Of a stretch of DNA of 38,536 nucleotides, positions 3,067 through 37,484 are shown in pieces; the stretch's first letter is position 1; every line of letters starts with the position of its first letter. The notes beneath the pieces were generated by a model. It saw only the letters and a program-made list of their open reading frames with translations. It ran no database searches and had not been told where the DNA came from. Source of the DNA: Candidatus Cloacimonadota bacterium (lineage in GTDB: Bacteria > Cloacimonadota > Cloacimonadia > JGIOTU-2). The stretch covers positions 1-38,536 of the forward strand of contig JAGMCF010000053.1 in assembly GCA_023129415.1 (NCBI GenBank). The letters run 5' to 3'. The position numbers and the translations under genes were made by a program.

Positions 3067-3147
3067 TTGTGTCTTTGTGTCCATTCTCCGTAGCAGTAGG
3101 ACTGCTACTGCGAAGGATGAACCTTTGTGGTTAGAAAGGATTTTCAG
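3067..3147 (+). repeat. CTTTGTG leader repeat, interrupted by a hairpin
   Basis: TTGTGTCTTTGTGTCC (3067-3082) and CCTTTGTGG..AGAAAGGATTTTCAG (3122-3147) correspond to the two halves of a continuous repeat seen at 15739-15777. About 38 bases separate them here, including the perfect hairpin GTAGCAGT-AGG-ACTGCTAC (3090-3108). The right half ends directly at the start codon of the next gene and contains its ribosome binding site (AGAAAGGA). Confidence 0.6.
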
Positions 3148-4377
3148 ATGAAAAAATTAAATCCATTAATAAATTATACTTTACTATCTTTACTGATCAT
3201 TCTAAATCTAAATTGTCTCCTCTTTGCTATTCAGCATGAGCAAAATCTTCAAACATTAATTGATAATACAAACTCCGGAGACACATTATTCCTTAAGAAT
3301 GGAATATATGAAGCAACACCTAAATCAATTATTGAAAAGATCTGTGGAAATTGTGTTGAACCACTTACAGATGTTCAAGCAACAGTTGGATTCTATATAA
3401 AAGGCAAATCAATAAAAATTTATGGTGAAAATCCAGACAGCACAATTTTAATCACAAATGCTGGTTATGGTATTTTGTTTGAAAACAGTTACGATTCATA
3501 TATCAGCAATTTAACAGTAACAGGTGGTATTCGTGATCCTGATGGAAATGCTACGGATGCAGGAATAGTTGTAAAAAATAGTCGGGTTACAATTGAAAAT
3601 GTCCATATTGTTAACAACACCCATCGGATTGACACAGTTGTTGTTGGCATTGGTGGAGTATTTGGTAGAGAAGGTGGAGAATTATTTATCCTCAATAATA
3701 TAATAAGAAATAACGGATGGGATGGTGTGGCACTTTACAGAGGAGCAACTGCTGTTATTGCTGATAATATTATTGAAACAGGCAGAGGAGCTGGGATAGG
3801 AATAACCTGGGATGCAGGTGCAATAGTTTATAGAAACAGAATATCTGGATATTGGAAAGGAATCGGAACATTCGGAGAATCACGAGCAGTTGTTCGTAAT
3901 AATGCTGTATTTAATAATCTTGGCTGGGGTATCATTGCAACAGGAAATGCTTATATGGAAGTGCTCAATAATGTTATCTATCATAATGGCAATTGCGGAT
4001 TTGCTGTCTGGCGAGAATCTACAAGAGGAATATTAAAAAATAACATCATTGCTAAAAATGGTTGGAAAGATGAATGGGTATGCCCTTGTGTTGGTGTCTG
4101 GATGAATACATCTTTGGAAAACTTCTCGATAGAATACAATAATGTGTGGGATAATTCCGCTGGCAATTATGAAGGAATTGATGACCAGACTGATAAAAAC
4201 GGGAATATTTCTCAAAATCCACAATTTATAAATAGTAATTCGTTTAGATTAAATCCAGAATCTCCCTGTATAAATTCTGGTGACCCAATTATAATTGACT
4301 CTAATGGAACAAGGTCTGATATAGGAATCTATGGTGGTCCACTGGGTAATACGAGATGCCAGATGCCGGATTCCTGA
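3148..4377 (+). CDS. Secreted right-handed beta-helix protein
   Basis: 409 residues. The ATG at 3148 is preferred over an in-frame GTG or ATG further upstream because AGAAAGGA lies 9 bases before it and MKKLNPLINYTLLSLLIILN then forms a signal peptide. The body has the repeating hydrophobic/Asn pattern of beta-helix coils (NNIIRNNGWDGVALYRGA, NNAVFNNLGWGIIATGN, NNVIYHNGNCGFAVWRES), followed by the closing block NPQFINSNSFRLNPESPCINSGDP and DIGIYGGP, which is common at the end of such domains. No sorting tail follows. Instead the last seven residues (RCQMPDS) are encoded by the first heptamers of a tandem repeat array, so the original C-terminus may have been lost when the repeat unit arrived. 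Likely a periplasmic or surface polysaccharide-binding or lyase-like protein; activity unknown. Confidence 0.85.
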   Translation: MKKLNPLINYTLLSLLIILNLNCLLFAIQHEQNLQTLIDNTNSGDTLFLKNGIYEATPKSIIEKICGNCVEPLTDVQATVGFYIKGKSIKIYGENPDSTILITNAGYGILFENSYDSYISNLTVTGGIRDPDGNATDAGIVVKNSRVTIENVHIVNNTHRIDTVVVGIGGVFGREGGELFILNNIIRNNGWDGVALYRGATAVIADNIIETGRGAGIGITWDAGAIVYRNRISGYWKGIGTFGESRAVVRNNAVFNNLGWGIIATGNAYMEVLNNVIYHNGNCGFAVWRESTRGILKNNIIAKNGWKDEWVCPCVGVWMNTSLENFSIEYNNVWDNSAGNYEGIDDQTDKNGNISQNPQFINSNSFRLNPESPCINSGDPIIIDSNGTRSDIGIYGGPLGNTRCQMPDS

Positions 4378-4490
4378 TACCTGATGCCAGATGCCGGATG
4401 CCGGATGCCGGATGCTGGATGCCAGATGCCGGATGCTGGATACCAGATGCTGGATGCCAGATGCCGGATGCCAGATACAAGATGACGGAT
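4355..4490 (+). repeat. Left heptamer array (GATGCCG) of four-helix-bundle unit 1
   Basis: GAT recurs every 7 bases without a register slip from 4355 to 4490 (20 occurrences, with GATGCCG, GATGCCA and GATGCTG the main variants). The array begins inside the last codons of the beta-helix gene and ends 17 bases before the four-helix-bundle start codon, with the ribosome binding site GAGGAAA just after it. Because 7 is not a multiple of 3, every frame through it reads as a 7-residue repeat; none of these is a credible protein. Confidence 0.9.
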
Positions 4491-4507
4491 AAGCGAGGAA
4501 ATTTGAA

Positions 4508-4894
4508 ATGCAAAAACCTAAAGGCTATAGAGATTTAGATATTTATAAATTAGCGAAAAAATTAGCAATTGAAATTCATAAAATTACTTTATCGCTTCCT
4601 CAATTTGAACTCTATGAAGAAGGAAGCCAAATTAGACGTTCTTCCAAATCAGTTGTTTCAAACATTGTGGAAGGTTTTGCAAGAAGAAAATATAAAAAAG
4701 ATTTTTTATACTACATAACCATATCTATTGGTGAATGTGACGAAACCCAAGTTCATCTGGAAATCTTATTTGAAACAGAATCACTCAAAGATAAAAATCT
4801 TTATGATTATTTAAAAAGTGAATACAATATACTTGGAAAGATGTTAATCAACTTTCATAAATCTGTATTGAAACATCACTTAAGCCCAAAATAA
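4508..4894 (+). CDS. Four-helix-bundle protein (23S rRNA intervening-sequence protein family)
   Basis: 128 residues, the usual length for this family. The N-terminus (YRDLDIYKLAKKLAIEIHKI), the central signature QIRRSSKSVVSNIVEGFARR (about residues 41-60) and the following FLYYITISIGECDETQVHLE are the family's hallmarks. The family includes ORFs found inside 23S rRNA intervening sequences and the Avd accessory protein of diversity-generating retroelements; a free-standing function is not established. GAGGAAA lies 7 to 8 bases before the ATG. The gene stands alone between two inverted arrays of 7-nt repeats (4355-4490 and 4924-5010), so a transcript of the unit could fold with the ORF in the loop. 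No reverse transcriptase or rRNA sequence is nearby. Confidence 0.92.
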   Translation: MQKPKGYRDLDIYKLAKKLAIEIHKITLSLPQFELYEEGSQIRRSSKSVVSNIVEGFARRKYKKDFLYYITISIGECDETQVHLEILFETESLKDKNLYDYLKSEYNILGKMLINFHKSVLKHHLSPK

Positions 4895-4923
4895 AAACAT
4901 AATATTGGTAATTAATATAAAAA

Positions 4924-5010
4924 ATCCGGCATCCGGCATCCGGCATCCGGCATCCGGTATCTGGTATCTGGCATCCGGCATCCGGCATCAGGTATCTTGA
5001 ATCCGGTATA
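4924..5010 (-). repeat. Right heptamer array (inverted, ATCCGGC) of unit 1
   Basis: ATC recurs every 7 bases from 4924 to 5003 (12 occurrences, mostly ATCCGGC, with ATCTGGT and ATCAGGT variants). CGGCATC is the reverse complement of GATGCCG, so this array is the inverted partner of 4355-4490. It starts 29 bases after the stop of the four-helix-bundle gene. Confidence 0.9.
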
Positions 5011-6323: not shown

Positions 6324-6479
6324 AAGCAAGACTTGGCTCGAGAGGAACGAAGTGACCTTAAGCCGAGAATTGCGAACTAAAATTGTCGTTCTCGCCCCAC
6401 ACTTCGTCCCGATTAAATCGGGAGTCCGACAAAGCAAGACTTGGCTCGAAAGATGAAGTCGTTGAGCCGAGAATTGCGA
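6324..6479. repeat. Two copies of an about 50-bp dispersed element plus a hairpin
   Basis: AAGCAAGACTTGGCTCGA (6324-6341) and GAGCCGAGAATTGCGA recur as a pair: copy 1 6324-6375 (with one variant base in the right half) and copy 2 6432-6479. The two halves of each copy are imperfect inverted partners (CTTGGCTC/GAGCCGAG). Between the copies sits a CCCGAT hairpin, CCCGATTAAATCGGG (6408-6422). No gene is supported here. Confidence 0.6.
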
Positions 6480-6929: not shown

Positions 6930-9900
6930 ATGAAAAAGCTTAAGAAATTGTCCTATTTAATGTTAAGTATGTTGGTAATCTTTTTTGCCACGAACTTATC
7001 TGCTCAGAACATTAATAACAAGATCGGTGGAACTGGAGAGAATGATGAATTTCAGGTTAGTGATAGTGAAGGAAATGTGAAATTCGTGGTTCAAGGAGAT
7101 GGCAATATCGGTATTGGAACAACCACTCCCCAAGCGTTGCTTGATATGACATCAACCACAAAAGGCATATTAGTACCACGTATGACCCAAATACAGCGTA
7201 ACGCAATTTCAACTCCGGCAACCGGACTTTTAATTTATCAAACCGACAATACACCCGGATTCTATTTTTATAATGGCAGCGGATGGGTAGTTGTTGGCTC
7301 CGGCTCCATGAGTATTAACGGACTTACAGATGGAAAAACAGAAGGCGGAAGCGTTTTTCTCGGCTCTGGTGCAGGAGCTAATGACGATGGGACTGATAAC
7401 TGGAATGTTGGAATTGGTATTGATGCATTGAATACAAATACGACAGGAGGTGTTAACACAGCAACCGGATACCAGGCTTTATATTCCAATACGACAGGAG
7501 ATATGAACACAGCAAATGGAGTGGGGGCTTTATATTACAATATAACAGGACATGGGAACACAGCAAATGGACTGGCGGCTTTATATTCTAATACAACAGG
7601 GAGTGATAACACAGCAAATGGAGTGATGGCTTTATATTACAATACAACAGGAAATAATAACACAGCAAATGGATACTGGGCTTTGTATTCCAATACAACA
7701 GGATACAATAATACAGCAAATGGATATTACTCAAATTACTATAACCAGACAGGCTCATATAATACTATCATAGGATATGAATCCGGCAAGGGAACAGCAT
7801 TACACAATAAATCCGGAAATGTTTTTCTAGGTTATCGAGCTGGACATTCAGCAACAGGATCGAGTAATGTATTTCTTGGTTATAAGGCAGGATACAATGA
7901 AGCCGGAGACAATAAACTTTACATTGAAAACTCAAATTCTTCATCACCATTAATTTATGGTGACTTTAACACTAACCTGTTAAGAGTAAACGGAACTCTG
8001 GATATCAATAGTGTATATCAGTTTCCAACATCAGACGGTGCACTTGGTCAGGTCTTGCAAACTAATGGAAGCGGCATATTAAGCTGGACTAGCGGAGGCG
8101 GAGGAGCATCTGAGATCAATGACCTCACTGACGGAAAAACAGGAAATCTCAGCGTTTTTCTTGGCTCAGGTGCAGGAGCTAATAACTCCGGAATATCTAA
8201 TGTTGCAGTTGGGATAGAGGTACTTAATACAAACACTTCAGGATATTATAATACAGCAACCGGATACCGGACTTTATTTTCCAATACGACAGGATATGGG
8301 AACACAGCAAATGGATACAATGCTTTATATTCCAATACGACAGGAAATAATAACACGGTAAATGGATTTTACGCAAATCACTTTAACCAGACAGGCTCAT
8401 ATAATACTATCATAGGATATGCAGCCGGCAAGGGAACAGCATTACACGATAAATCCGGAAATGTATTTCTTGGTTATCAAGCAGGATACAATGAGATCGG
8501 AGACAATAAGCTCTACATCGAAAACTCAAATTCTTCATCACCTTTAATTTATGGTGATTTTGGCACTAACCTATTAAGAGTAAACGGAACCCTGGATATC
8601 AATAATGTATATCAATTTCCAACATCAGACGGTTCCCTTGGACAGATATTGCAAACTAACGGAGGCGGCATATTAAGCTGGACTAACGCAGGTAATGAAA
8701 TTAACGGTCTTTTAGATGGAAAAACAGGAGGCAACAGCGTTTTTCTTGGCTCAGGTGCAGGAGTTAATGACGATGGAACAGATAACAATAATGTTGCAGT
8801 TGGTATTAATGCATTTAATTCAAACACTTCAGGATTTGATAACACAGCAACCGGATACCAGTCCTTATTTTACAATTTGTCAGGATATGGGAATACAGCA
8901 AATGGAACGTATGCTTTAAATTCCAATACAACAGGATACAATAATACAGCAAATGGAGTGTCTGCTTTATTTTACAATACATCAGGACATACTAACACAG
9001 CAAATGGATTCTATGCTTTACGTTTCAATACTACAGGAGGTAGTAACACAGCAAATGGATATGGGGCTTTATATAGAAATACAACAGGAAATGGTAACAC
9101 AGCAAATGGATATTACGCAAATCACTTTAACCAGACAGGCTCAAATAACACTATCATAGGATTTAAAGCCGGCTATGGAACAGGAGTACACAATAAATCC
9201 GGAAATGTATTCCTGGGATATAAGGCAGGATACTATGAAACAGGAGACAATAAACTTTACATTGGAAACTCAAATTCTTCATCACCTTTAATTTATGGCG
9301 AGTTTGCCAATAACCTGTTAAGAATAAACGGAACCCTGGACATCTATAATGCATATCAATTTCCAACTACAGACGGTGCACTTGGTCAGTTCTTGCAAAC
9401 TAACGGAACAGGCACATTGAGCTGGTCAAGCGCTTCGGGAGTCGTTGATATTAACGGTCTTTTAGATGGAAAAACAGGAGGCAACAGCGTTTTTCTTGGC
9501 TCAGGTGCAGGAAATGATAACTCTGGTGGATCATATAATGCTGCAGTTGGTTATAATGCACTTTATCATAACACTTCAGGACATTATAACACAGCAAATG
9601 GATACAGTGCTTTAAATTCCAATACAACAGGAAGTGGTAACACAGCAATTGGATTTGATGCTTTATCACTCAATGAAGGAAGTAATAACACAGCAATTGG
9701 ATATATGGCAAATTTCCAAAACAGGTTCGGTTCAAATAATACTATCATAGGATATGAAGCTGGCAAGGGAACAGGAATACACGATAAATCCGGAAATGTA
9801 TTCCTGGGATATCAGGCAGGTTACAGCGAGCATGGAAGCAATATACTTTACATAGAAAACTCAAGTTCTGCATCCCCGCTTATCTGGGGAGATTTTGCTA

Positions 9901-22717: not shown

Positions 22718-23320
22718 ATGAATATTAAAAAATATATAATTCTTTTTGTAGTCATTTCAATATTTGGCTGTGCTAAGCGGTATATAGCAAAATATTATAT
22801 CCTGGATTATAATCCACTCATATATGTAGAAACCCAGGTTGAAAAGCCTTTCCCTTATAATTTACAGGTTAAAGAATTCAAGATTAACCGCACTTATGAT
22901 AATACCAGAATTGTTATAAGACAATCTACTCATGAGGTTTACTATGACCGAATGAGTCTATGGGCAACCAGACCACAAGTAGCTATTACTAATCTTTTAA
23001 TTAATCATATTAATAAACTAAAAATAGTAAAAAAATGTGAGAAAACCTTTTTAGAAGAAAGACCTGACTATATCATCTCAGGTACTATCCAGAGTATAGA
23101 AAAATATCAAAGTGAAAGATACTCTCGTGCCGATTTGCATATTTCAATTTACCTAATAGATGTTCAGGAAAATCAAATTGTTTTAAACTATACCATTGAA
23201 AGATATATACCTCTTTACACAAATAAAATGAATTACTTTTCTAAAAAGATTAGTGATACTCTAAATGAAGAATTCAATGTATTTCTTGCTCAGGTGATTA
23301 ATTATTTCAGTAGGCAGTAA
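22718..23320 (+). CDS. PqiC-like / ABC transport auxiliary lipoprotein
   Basis: 200 residues. Lipobox IFGC with Cys18 after a short signal peptide. The body (YYILDY, LQVKEFKINRTYDNTRIVIR, WATRPQVAITNLL, PDYIISGTIQSIEKY) fits the ABC_trans_aux family of outer-membrane lipoproteins that accompany MCE transporters. It begins 2 bases after mlaD, so they are co-translated. The last residues (SRQ) and the stop are encoded by the first heptamers of a repeat array (23308 on), as happens to the beta-helix gene at 4355; the original end may have been replaced. Confidence 0.85.
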   Translation: MNIKKYIILFVVISIFGCAKRYIAKYYILDYNPLIYVETQVEKPFPYNLQVKEFKINRTYDNTRIVIRQSTHEVYYDRMSLWATRPQVAITNLLINHINKLKIVKKCEKTFLEERPDYIISGTIQSIEKYQSERYSRADLHISIYLIDVQENQIVLNYTIERYIPLYTNKMNYFSKKISDTLNEEFNVFLAQVINYFSRQ

Positions 23321-23342
23321 GCAGTAGGCAGTTGGCGGGTAA
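23308..23342 (+). repeat. Left heptamer array (CAGTAGG) of four-helix-bundle unit 2
   Basis: CAGTAGG, CAGTAAG, CAGTAGG, CAGTTGG and CGGGTAA follow one another in register. The array starts in the last codons of the upstream lipoprotein gene and runs to just before the four-helix-bundle frame. Confidence 0.85.
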
Positions 23343-23361
23343 AAAAAGAAAGGAATTACTT

Positions 23362-23619
23362 TTGTCGCAAGATCTTAAAGATTTAATCGTTTACAAGAAA
23401 GCTTTTAGACTGGCTATGGAAATTTTTCGCCTCAGTAAAGGCTTTCCTAAACCCGCCTGCCAAAGCTTGGTGGCGGGCAAGGATGAACTTTATTTTCTTA
23501 CTGATCAAATCCGACGATCATCACGATCAGTGTGTTCAAACATAGCAGAAGAATATCGTAAGCGTCAATACAATGCATATTTTATTAGTAAAATATTCCC
23601 AATACATCGGGATGATTAA
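23362..23619 (+). pseudogene. Degenerate four-helix-bundle protein gene (unit 2)
   Basis: The frame probably starts at TTG 23362 (AAAGGA 8 to 9 bases upstream; TTG 23332 is an alternative). It keeps the family signature DQIRRSSRSVCSNIAEEYRK and the preceding LIVYKKAFRLAMEIF. Aligned with the intact copy at 4508-4894, it has an extra 10 residues (PACQSLVAGK) exactly where a CCCGCC/GGCGGG palindrome lies. It stops early at a CCCAAT...ATCGGG palindrome (FISKIFPIHRDD), losing the last helix and a half. Both lesions coincide with dispersed palindromes. Probably non-functional; a short product cannot be ruled out. Confidence 0.8.
23452..23477. repeat. Palindromic element inserted in frame within a coding sequence
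   Basis: CCCGCC...GGCGGG with an inner CCAAAGCTTGG. Together with flanking bases it accounts for exactly 30 extra nucleotides (10 codons) compared with the paralogue at 4508. It is related to the CCGCCAG/CTGGCGG arms near 13772-13823. Confidence 0.7.
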
Positions 23620-23655
23620 ACAGCCATAAAAATATCAACCGAAGAGTTAATGGGT

Positions 23656-23736
23656 AGTTAGCAGTAAGGAGTAAAAATTGAGCAAGAACTTTTACCGGAA
23701 ATTATCTATTGTCTACTGCCTACTGCCAACTGCCAA
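23656..23736. repeat. Right heptamer arrays of unit 2 (direct remnant plus inverted array)
   Basis: AGTTAGC, AGTAAGG, AGTAAAA (23656-23676) are in direct orientation. TACTGCC, TACTGCC and AACTGCC (23714-23734) are inverted relative to CAGTAGG. The inverted part ends shortly before the ribosome binding site of the next gene. Confidence 0.75.
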
Positions 23737-26392: not shown

Positions 26393-26518
26393 CACATAGC
26401 GCGGTAAACCGCAAAGATTAAAGATTAAAGGTAAAAGATCAAAATTCTAAACCCAAAATCTAAATTTTGATTTCTTGCAAAAAAACAAAGATTTCATTTA
26501 TGATACTATAAAGTAGAT

Positions 26519-35719: not shown

Positions 35720-37198
35720 ATGGGAATATATAAAATATTTATCAGCAGCGTTCAAGAGGAATTTAAAAAGGAACGATTAGTAGTAAAAGAACTTATAACC
35801 CAGAATGCTCTACTAAAAAAGTATTTCACAGTATTTCTTTTTGAAGACCTTCCAGCTAAAAGCAAATCAGCACAAGACATTTATTTAAGAAATATTTCAA
35901 AAAGTGATATTATGATATTAATTTTAGGAAAAGACTATGGAAAGATAGGTGCTGATAATCTTTCTGCTATTGAAAAAGAATATAGAAAAGCAGTTGAAAA
36001 AAATTTAGAAACTCTAACATTTATAAAAGATGTCAATAACTCTGATAGAGATAAAAGAGTATTACGACTCATTAAAGAAATAGAAAACCCTGATAAAGGC
36101 TATATATATAAGACATTTGATGATAATTCACAATTAAAAGAGTGTATTTATAACAGTCTTGTAGAATTTCTTGATGAGCAAGGTATTTTACCTAAATTTC
36201 CTTTTGACAAAAGAATATGTGAAGATGCATCTTATGAAGATATAAAGGAAGAATTAGTTTGGGATTTTCTGGAAACCAGAGCAACAAAACTGAAAGTAGC
36301 AGTTCCGAAAATATCTATTAAAGATTTTCTACAAAAAACTGTTAAAGTAGTAAAAGACGAAGATGGAGTGTTAAAACCGACAAATACTGCAATATTATTT
36401 TTCTGTGACAATCCTCAAGATTTCATTTCGCAAAGTATTATTAAAATTGCCCGTTTTAGAGGAAATACACGAATTGAATTTATTGATTCCCAAGAATTAA
36501 TAGGTCCAATCTATAAAATTCTTAATTATATTGAAAATTTTTTCAAAAGAAATACGCGTTTAGCAAGTAAGATTGTAGAATTTAAACGAGTGGACATACC
36601 TGAATATCCTTTTGAGGCTATAAGAGAAGCGATTGTTAATGCCATTGCACATAGAGATTATTTACGAATTGGTGCAAATATTCAAATAAATATTTTTGAT
36701 GATAGAATTGAGGTTACCAGTCCTGGTGGGTTACTTCCCGGCTTAGATATAAATCATCTGGAAGGTGTTCATGAAACAAGGAATAAAGAGATCTGCAAAA
36801 TTTTTCACGAAACAAAAGATATGGAAAAATATGGCACTGGAATAACTAAGATGAACAACTTGATGAATGAACATGGTCTTAATCAACCTGCTTTAAATCA
36901 GATAAGTAATTTCTTCAGAGTTACCTTTTATGGACCCGGTGAAAAAATTCTAGATTTGGTTTCAAATATACCCGAAGAAAGGCAAACAGATTTAAAAGAA
37001 TTAGGTCTGAATGAAAGACAGATTGAAGCATTGAGATTGATGGTGAATGAAGATGAAAAAATAACAATTAGAAAATATGCAAATTTTTTTAATGTTAGTG
37101 ATAAGACTGTAAAAAGGGATTTGAAGAAGTTGGTTGAAACAGGATTTGTAGTTAAAGTTGGATATAAAAAGGGAGCATATTTTGAAGCAAAAAAATAA
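35720..37198 (+). CDS. DUF4062 - HATPase_c_4 - winged-helix protein
   Basis: 492 residues; AGGAATTG precedes the ATG. Residues 1-110 are DUF4062 (YKIFISSVQEEFKKER, SKSDIMILILGKDYG), a TIR/SEFIR-like fold. Residues 160-290 match the linker of Schlafen/AlbA-type ATP-binding proteins (PTNTAILFFCDNPQ). Residues 295-400 carry GHKL ATPase motifs EAIREAIVNAIAHRDY (299-314), SPGGLLPG (334-341), RNKEICKIF and EKYGTGI (369-375). Residues 432-492 form a winged helix (ITIRKYANFFNVSDKTVKRD). Compared with the usual AlbA_2-HATPase-wHTH proteins, DUF4062 stands where AlbA_2 would be. It lies between radC and hsdS in the same direction. Regulator or separate defence effector are both possible. Confidence 0.85.
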   Translation: MGIYKIFISSVQEEFKKERLVVKELITQNALLKKYFTVFLFEDLPAKSKSAQDIYLRNISKSDIMILILGKDYGKIGADNLSAIEKEYRKAVEKNLETLTFIKDVNNSDRDKRVLRLIKEIENPDKGYIYKTFDDNSQLKECIYNSLVEFLDEQGILPKFPFDKRICEDASYEDIKEELVWDFLETRATKLKVAVPKISIKDFLQKTVKVVKDEDGVLKPTNTAILFFCDNPQDFISQSIIKIARFRGNTRIEFIDSQELIGPIYKILNYIENFFKRNTRLASKIVEFKRVDIPEYPFEAIREAIVNAIAHRDYLRIGANIQINIFDDRIEVTSPGGLLPGLDINHLEGVHETRNKEICKIFHETKDMEKYGTGITKMNNLMNEHGLNQPALNQISNFFRVTFYGPGEKILDLVSNIPEERQTDLKELGLNERQIEALRLMVNEDEKITIRKYANFFNVSDKTVKRDLKKLVETGFVVKVGYKKGAYFEAKK

Positions 37199-37484
37199 AG
37201 CTCCTAAAAATGAAATAATGTCCTTAAAAATATCCCTAAATTTGATGTCCCTAAAAACGCAGAAATGTCCCTAAAAATGTCCCAAAAAACTTTATAGAGA
37301 AAATGGGTAAAACAAAGGGAACATATTTTAAAGCAAAAAAATAAAGATCCTAAAAATGAAATAATGTCCTTAAAAATATCCCTAAATTTGATGTCCCTAA
37401 AAACGCAGAAATGTCCCTAAAAATGTCCCAAAAAACTTTATAGAGAAAATGGGTAAAACAAAGGGAACATATTTTAAAGCAAAA
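37168..37484 (+). repeat. 146-bp tandem repeat including the 3' end of the DUF4062 gene
   Basis: Copy 1 about 37168-37313, copy 2 about 37314-37459, partial copy 3 37460-37484, with an exact 146-base offset. The first 31 bases of each copy encode or mimic the protein's end (KGAYFEAKK in the gene, KGTYFKAKK in copy 2). The rest contains ATGTCCCTAAAA-type subrepeats (five or so per copy). The copies are nearly identical, so the duplication is recent. Confidence 0.9.

Follow-up and report, generated by a model that had tools for sequence, protein, structure and literature searches.

Genes of the S23/IVP family bounded by inverted arrays of 7-9-nt repeats: a widespread mobile element, and probably an intercistronic counterpart of rRNA intervening sequences

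The stretch of DNA analysed here (the window) comprises 38,536 nucleotides from a Candidatus Cloacimonadota bacterium (GenBank assembly GCA_023129415.1, contig JAGMCF010000053.1), and holds two units in which an S23/IVP gene is bounded by short tandem repeats (Table 1). For the first of these, unit 1, a sequence-only reading had described a four-helix-bundle gene enclosed by 20 GAT-headed heptamers and 12 inverted ones in strict 7-nt register, and had noted that the left array both supplies the stop codon of the upstream gene and abuts a ribosome-binding-like sequence; we find each of these features as described. The two arms are 84% complementary over 89 nt, and unit 1 thereby has the complementary ends of an intervening sequence (IVS). 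Its neighbours are a β-helix ORF upstream and hypA downstream, so it does not lie inside a 23S rRNA gene. This is also the sole place in the 3.46-Mb host genome where GATRCYR occurs three times in succession. At the corresponding site in G002, one of three same-genus genomes compared (G001-G003), the same heptamer array is present and starts past the native stop codon, the contig ending there, and in G001 there is no array ahead of hypA (L228, L229). As the native stop precedes the array in G002, the stop within the array of unit 1 is a later change in this lineage.

The protein encoded by unit 1 is a full-length match to its family, reaching 96.2 bits against PF05635 (cut-off 33.8; positions 1-105 of 106) and 99.1 bits against TIGR02436 (cut-off 24). 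S23/IVP genes are common in bacterial genomes, and we know of no function for the family. The relatives of solved structure identified by sequence, 2gsc and 2rld, each have five chains per entry. Profile searches gave no transposase or nuclease domain in the protein, and, with dN/dS values of 0.06-0.31, it is under purifying selection. Unit 2 (23308-23736) is a second, decayed copy with another heptamer, CAGTAGG; its ORF lacks the C-terminal part and carries a short internal insertion.

Table 1. Features of the two array-bounded units, in window positions
Feature	Position	Strand	Basis or remark
Unit 1 left array, 20 GATGCCG-type heptamers	4355..4494	+	Sequence reading, strict 7-nt register
TGA stop codon of upstream β-helix ORF (3127-4377), within left array	4375..4377	+	
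GAGGAAA, ribosome-binding-like, in the gap between array and start codon, directly after array	4495..4501	+	Read from sequence
Unit 1 S23/IVP four-helix-bundle gene, 128 aa	4508..4894	+	PF05635 1.6e-27, TIGR02436 1.6e-28
Unit 1 right array, 12 inverted heptamers	4924..5007	-	ATCCGGC on + strand
Unit 2 left array, CAGTAGG, including upstream ORF stop (23318-23320)	23308..23336	+	
Unit 2 S23/IVP ORF, truncated, 95 aa	23332..23619	+	PF05635 5.5e-15, profile positions 1-61 of 106
Unit 2 right inverted array	23701..23736	-	ACTGCCT / ACTGCCA on + strand

The host genome (300 contigs) gives 29 matches to PF05635, a few being fragments of one gene. This is nevertheless an undercount, as the Pfam search overlooked a divergent family member, an array-flanked broken ORF at L069 1017-1724 (contig C134, ~21.0-21.8 kb). 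Inverted arrays lie at many of the host copies, and their repeat unit varies: GATGCCG, AGCGTAG, GTTAGAA, CAGTTGG, the 8-nt GTRAAYTR, the 9-nt GGAAATAAG and others. Period-7 arrays, counted across 406 kb of the host, reach 0.60/kb within 500 bp of the family compared with 0.043/kb elsewhere, and strong arrays of period 7-9 number 15 in 218 kb of further contigs picked independently of the family. Arms that match each other flank 16 of 23 family ORFs in the host, and the rate among its other small ORFs is 4 in 122 (Fisher 1e-12). Several contigs end inside arrays (C45 at its end and C300 at its start in G000, C4 at its start in G002); assemblies thus seem to break there, and counts from draft genomes are probably too low.

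The arrangement recurs well beyond this genome. We collected 80 loci from Bacteroidota, Ignavibacteria, Acidobacteria, Nitrospirae, Acetothermia, Omnitrophota, candidate phyla and ANME-1 archaea, of which 77 had enough flank for the arms to be compared, a match being a score of at least 18. The arms match in 53% of these 77 loci, compared with 0.4% at control positions and 1.7% with swapped flanks (Mann-Whitney 3.5e-24), and for the 54 loci of the window's own phylum the corresponding rates are 59%, 0% and 0.6%. Depending on the sample, inverted flanks match at 53-70% of loci and in 0-3% of controls. The broad alignment of the family had no conserved stretches and a narrower query was used, which biases the genome_contigs sample to one subfamily; furthermore, the scoring overlooks degenerate arrays such as that of L123, and about a quarter of loci have no array detected by these scores. 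Copies on cyanobacterial plasmids have the same array arrangement, and at four loci (L129, L154, L167, L189) the arrays flank the gene in direct rather than inverted orientation.

Could such arrays simply be low-complexity or AT-rich intergenic repeats that lie beside the gene by accident? Weak AT-rich arrays do exist elsewhere in the host genome, as this explanation would have it. However, the control positions, swapped flanks and small-ORF comparison given above refute it, and arrays are also present at GC-rich loci such as that of Azospirillum, so that we regard chance as practically eliminated. Indeed, the sequence-only reading had named as its own test whether flanking arrays are more frequent around members of this family than around other genes, and they are far commoner there. 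What it saw at unit 1 was right, and unit 1 exemplifies an arrangement that is general, recurring in many bacterial phyla and in some archaea. Its view of the repeat as a heptamer holds in part: the arrays are real, but the unit is of 7, 8 or 9 nt (with the multiple 14, and almost nothing else), and every lineage of the element has its own. The 8- and 9-nt arrays rule out a strictly 7-nt unit, and the variation between copies rules out a fixed recognition motif; with units specific to each lineage, it follows that no such motif is recognised.

Whilst the repeat unit differs between copies, it is common to both arms of a copy, and its sequence tracks the relatedness of the proteins, even across genomes. 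Arrays are alike in 87% of pairs with a protein similarity above 0.8 compared with ~1% of distant pairs, array and protein similarity are correlated (Spearman 0.20; permutation maximum 0.11), and the protein tree shows 19 changes of repeat period compared with at least 27 in shuffles. Between paralogs at unrelated sites, the likeness sets in roughly where the left array starts and stops roughly where the right array ends, or no more than ~50 bp beyond. Likewise, L006 in the host genome and L121 on a Nostoc plasmid are 76% identical over 300 bp and both have the octamer GGAGCAGA, from which we infer horizontal transfer of the gene along with its array.

To compare occupied and empty sites, orthologous sites in the three same-genus genomes were located with the flanking proteins as queries and then read. 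The unit on C265 occupies 651 bp in the host, where G002 has 4 bp between flanks that are 90-95% identical; those on C89 and C237 measure 671 and 516 bp compared with 51 and 17 bp at the orthologous sites, and unit 2 of the window measures 432 bp compared with 58 bp at the empty site in G001 (L213). Whole units are thus present or absent at orthologous sites (e.g. L207, L219, L220, L213, L227), as a comparison proposed in the sequence-only reading was meant to reveal. In G001, the place of the C205 unit is taken by a hairpin of 8-nt repeats that measures 70 bp and has no gene (L223). The C89 site in G001 and G003 (L230, L231, ~900-1180) retains the left array and two pieces of the gene, its first ~80 bp and a final portion, and is an internally deleted copy. 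At the sites read, flanks diverged by 5-25% would hide an exact target duplication, and none is visible. With empty sites, and a likeness that is essentially limited to arrays plus gene, the two behave as one mobile unit, which bears out the suggestion that unit 1 is a self-contained genetic element. The array-bounded element is real, widespread and mobile.

The placement of these elements within operons is strongly biased. Considering the 117 loci at which both neighbours are readable, both are co-directional with the gene in 97 and both opposed in none; other small ORFs in the host have both neighbours opposed in 15 of 106 cases. The start of the left array lies at most 30 bp from the stop codon of the preceding gene in 84% of loci, and in 53% the array contains that stop or starts at it; the right array lies a median of 18 bp from the next start codon. 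This stop-adjacent, sense placement can be the result of targeting or of selection, and the data fit either; the bias in orientation could come from selection alone. It suggests a way for an operon to tolerate a long hairpin insertion, namely in the gap between stop and start codons. One might argue that the gene is an ordinary, immobile member of its operons, accompanied by a regulatory hairpin that serves as terminator, mRNA stabiliser or autoregulation site; the co-directional neighbours, the predicted stem (see below) and purifying selection all suit this idea. On the other hand, sites are empty in species of the same genus, a genome can hold up to 29 matches, and close paralogs have unrelated flanks, all of which make an immobile operon gene very improbable.

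The sequence-only reading had envisaged an RNA that folds up as a long stem whose loop holds the ORF, and structure prediction agrees. The fold predicted for unit 1 (-247 kcal/mol, z -14) places the ORF in the loop that the array stem closes, and at 78% of 74 loci the right array is predicted to pair with half or more of the left one. The stem does not appear to be kept unit by unit in register, however: when units were shuffled within arms at 40 loci, the shuffled arm paired equally well (combined p 0.999). The arms are therefore alike in their units and not in their order, so that units turn over whilst being kept alike in kind, and neither an exact stem nor any one register of it is conserved.

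The same reading had linked unit 1 to the IVSs of 23S rRNA, and a copy on an Azospirillum plasmid (L123) strengthens that link. Alone among the loci examined, it sits in a 23S rRNA gene, and its arms are inverted heptamer arrays of the same kind (31/36 positions alike) with a similar predicted fold (z -9.7). Moreover, the IVS of Coxiella burnetii has a 28-bp terminal stem, is excised by RNase III, and carries tandem GACAGAT heptamers ahead of its S23p ORF; rRNA IVSs with such an ORF have been described as selfish (PMC4990558). The units described here resemble rRNA IVSs in the protein family and in their inverted ends, which form a stem whose loop contains the ORF. They differ in being intercistronic, with many copies per genome, and in their longer, lineage-specific 7-9-nt arrays on both sides; cutting by RNase III is known for the rRNA IVSs only. 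The element is thus related to rRNA IVSs by protein, stem and arrays, and lies mostly outside rRNA. From the Azospirillum and Coxiella features, we propose that rRNA IVSs represent one landing place of the element.

Arrays also occur without the gene. Three successive copies of GTRAAYTR are found at 27 sites in the host genome, with the gene at 3 of them, and the gene-less octamer sites examined include inverted hairpins and single arrays, several starting at a stop codon. Hairpins of this gene-less kind were read at L223 (in G001), L258, L259, L271 and other loci. For this one unit family, the gene-less copies amount to a dispersal like that of MITEs, whereas the heptamer of unit 1 is confined to one site; the dispersed sites make spread in trans plausible. 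One rival view has an unrelated transposase move the hairpin arrays, or has them originate through replication slippage and template switching; the S23/IVP gene would then be either cargo that was captured or a regulator. The excess of gene-less arrays in the octamer family speaks for such an origin, as do the lack of a known catalytic domain in the protein and the tandem units, which invite slippage and are common to both arms without a common order. Yet a single gene family accompanies the arrays across phyla, unit and protein are inherited together, the protein is constrained as a passenger need not be, and an unsystematic reading of the surroundings showed no common transposase gene beside the units; a MITE-like origin consequently seems unlikely to us.

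Several known repeat systems invite comparison. REPIN/RAYT and MITE/IS pairs have the same dispersed, gene-less inverted copies beside few gene-bearing ones, but our unit is without a Y1 or DDE transposase, and its ends are tandem arrays whose unit varies in length and sequence. In eukaryotes, Foldback (FB) transposons have long inverted ends made of short tandem subrepeats; the unit here differs from them in being bacterial, far smaller, sense-oriented in operons and equipped with another gene. The STRR repeats of cyanobacteria are heptamers. Intergenic heptamers have been described in Xanthomonas (GGGAATC) and Nostoc (GGGGA(T/C)T), often as facing inverted pairs, 70 of them in X. campestris, without a link to an S23p gene or to mobility (PMC4692102). 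The solved S23p structure 2gsc comes from the same Xanthomonas species as the GGGAATC repeat. A fragment of 2gsc as query found no Xanthomonas plasmid, and GGGAATC arrays gave three matches in viral contigs. No paper linking S23/IVP genes generally to flanking arrays came to light in a search that left out preprints and many subscription papers.

The protein points to a further possibility, namely that a reverse transcriptase acting in trans copies the RNA of the element, with the S23/IVP protein in a role like that of Avd. Avd, the accessory protein of diversity-generating retroelements, has a homologous four-helix-bundle fold (PMC10053308), and the homology is seen here as a match to PHROG 3206 (E 3e-11); sense orientation within transcripts and the structured RNA predicted above would also fit. 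However, RVT_1 has no match in G001 (96% complete, with 22 copies of the family), G002 or G003, and its two matches in the host genome are on contigs (C44 and C172) that have no PF05635 match. The absence from three same-genus genomes weakens an Avd-like retro-mechanism despite the homology, even if copies could predate the loss of a reverse transcriptase. We therefore hold retrotransposition to be improbable. The pair of template and variable repeats that marks a diversity-generating retroelement was not noticed in passing. Two other affiliations were rejected: a phage origin, as the phage collection gave no match, though viral contigs yielded 20 relatives, several of which have arrays; and a defence system, for which PADLOC returned a weak partial match to BovA alone (E 7e-4).

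Taken together, we consider it likely that these units are a small (~0.4-0.7 kb) mobile element, made of one S23/IVP gene between inverted 7-9-nt arrays, and the intercistronic counterpart of the rRNA IVSs. In the model that we favour, the element would be transcribed together with the host operon, and its arms would pair into the long predicted stem with the ORF in the loop. By analogy with rRNA IVSs, a double-strand RNase such as RNase III may then cut the stem; the flanking cistrons would stay usable and the insertion would be tolerated. The S23/IVP protein, whose relatives of solved structure are homopentameric and which is related to Avd, might bind the stem of the arrays, in RNA or DNA form, and promote the spread of the element and, in trans, of the gene-less arrays. 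Alternatively, the protein could be kept for a host function instead. More tentatively, and with some doubt on our part, we can picture a widespread class of elements without a transposase, in which the S23/IVP protein itself recognises the array of its lineage, turnover of units keeps the arms alike, and array hairpins with or without the gene spread into gene ends; such a class would unite the rRNA IVSs with the Xanthomonas and cyanobacterial heptamers. Regardless of the mechanism, arrays that bound the gene, and that are inherited and moved with it, give the S23/IVP family a genetic context in which its function becomes directly testable. They may also join several puzzles: the origin of rRNA IVSs, the over-represented heptamer repeats of bacteria, and the Avd partner of diversity-generating retroelements.

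A number of other repeats were noted along the way. Short palindromic sequences are inserted in S23/IVP coding regions (window 23450-23480; genes in L021, L022 and L026), where they translate as ACQSLVAG or SRLGEA-like stretches; the gene of L022 has such an insert and its close paralog L024 does not, and similar palindromic text lies between genes after an Mrp-like gene (window 6330-6470). These inserts look like a family of palindromic repeats of coding regions. The paralogous units of L022 and L024 each lie between direct repeat copies of 80-100 bp (at ~1350-1440 and ~1950-2060), which have complementary ends and are situated outside the arrays. A dispersed intergenic repeat with AAAGATTAAAGATTAAAGGTAAAAGAT flanked by TAGCGCGGTAAACCGC occurs at window 26413-26464 and at L071 3149, L077 12456 and L073 2159, with no S23/IVP gene at these sites. 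Finally, the window contains a 1126-aa ORF (7437-9703) with 51/102-bp tandem repeats that encode repeated NT..G..AL motifs, which we take to resemble the heads of trimeric autotransporters, and a 146-bp tandem duplication of 98% identity (37168-37484) that adjoins a 492-aa ORF.
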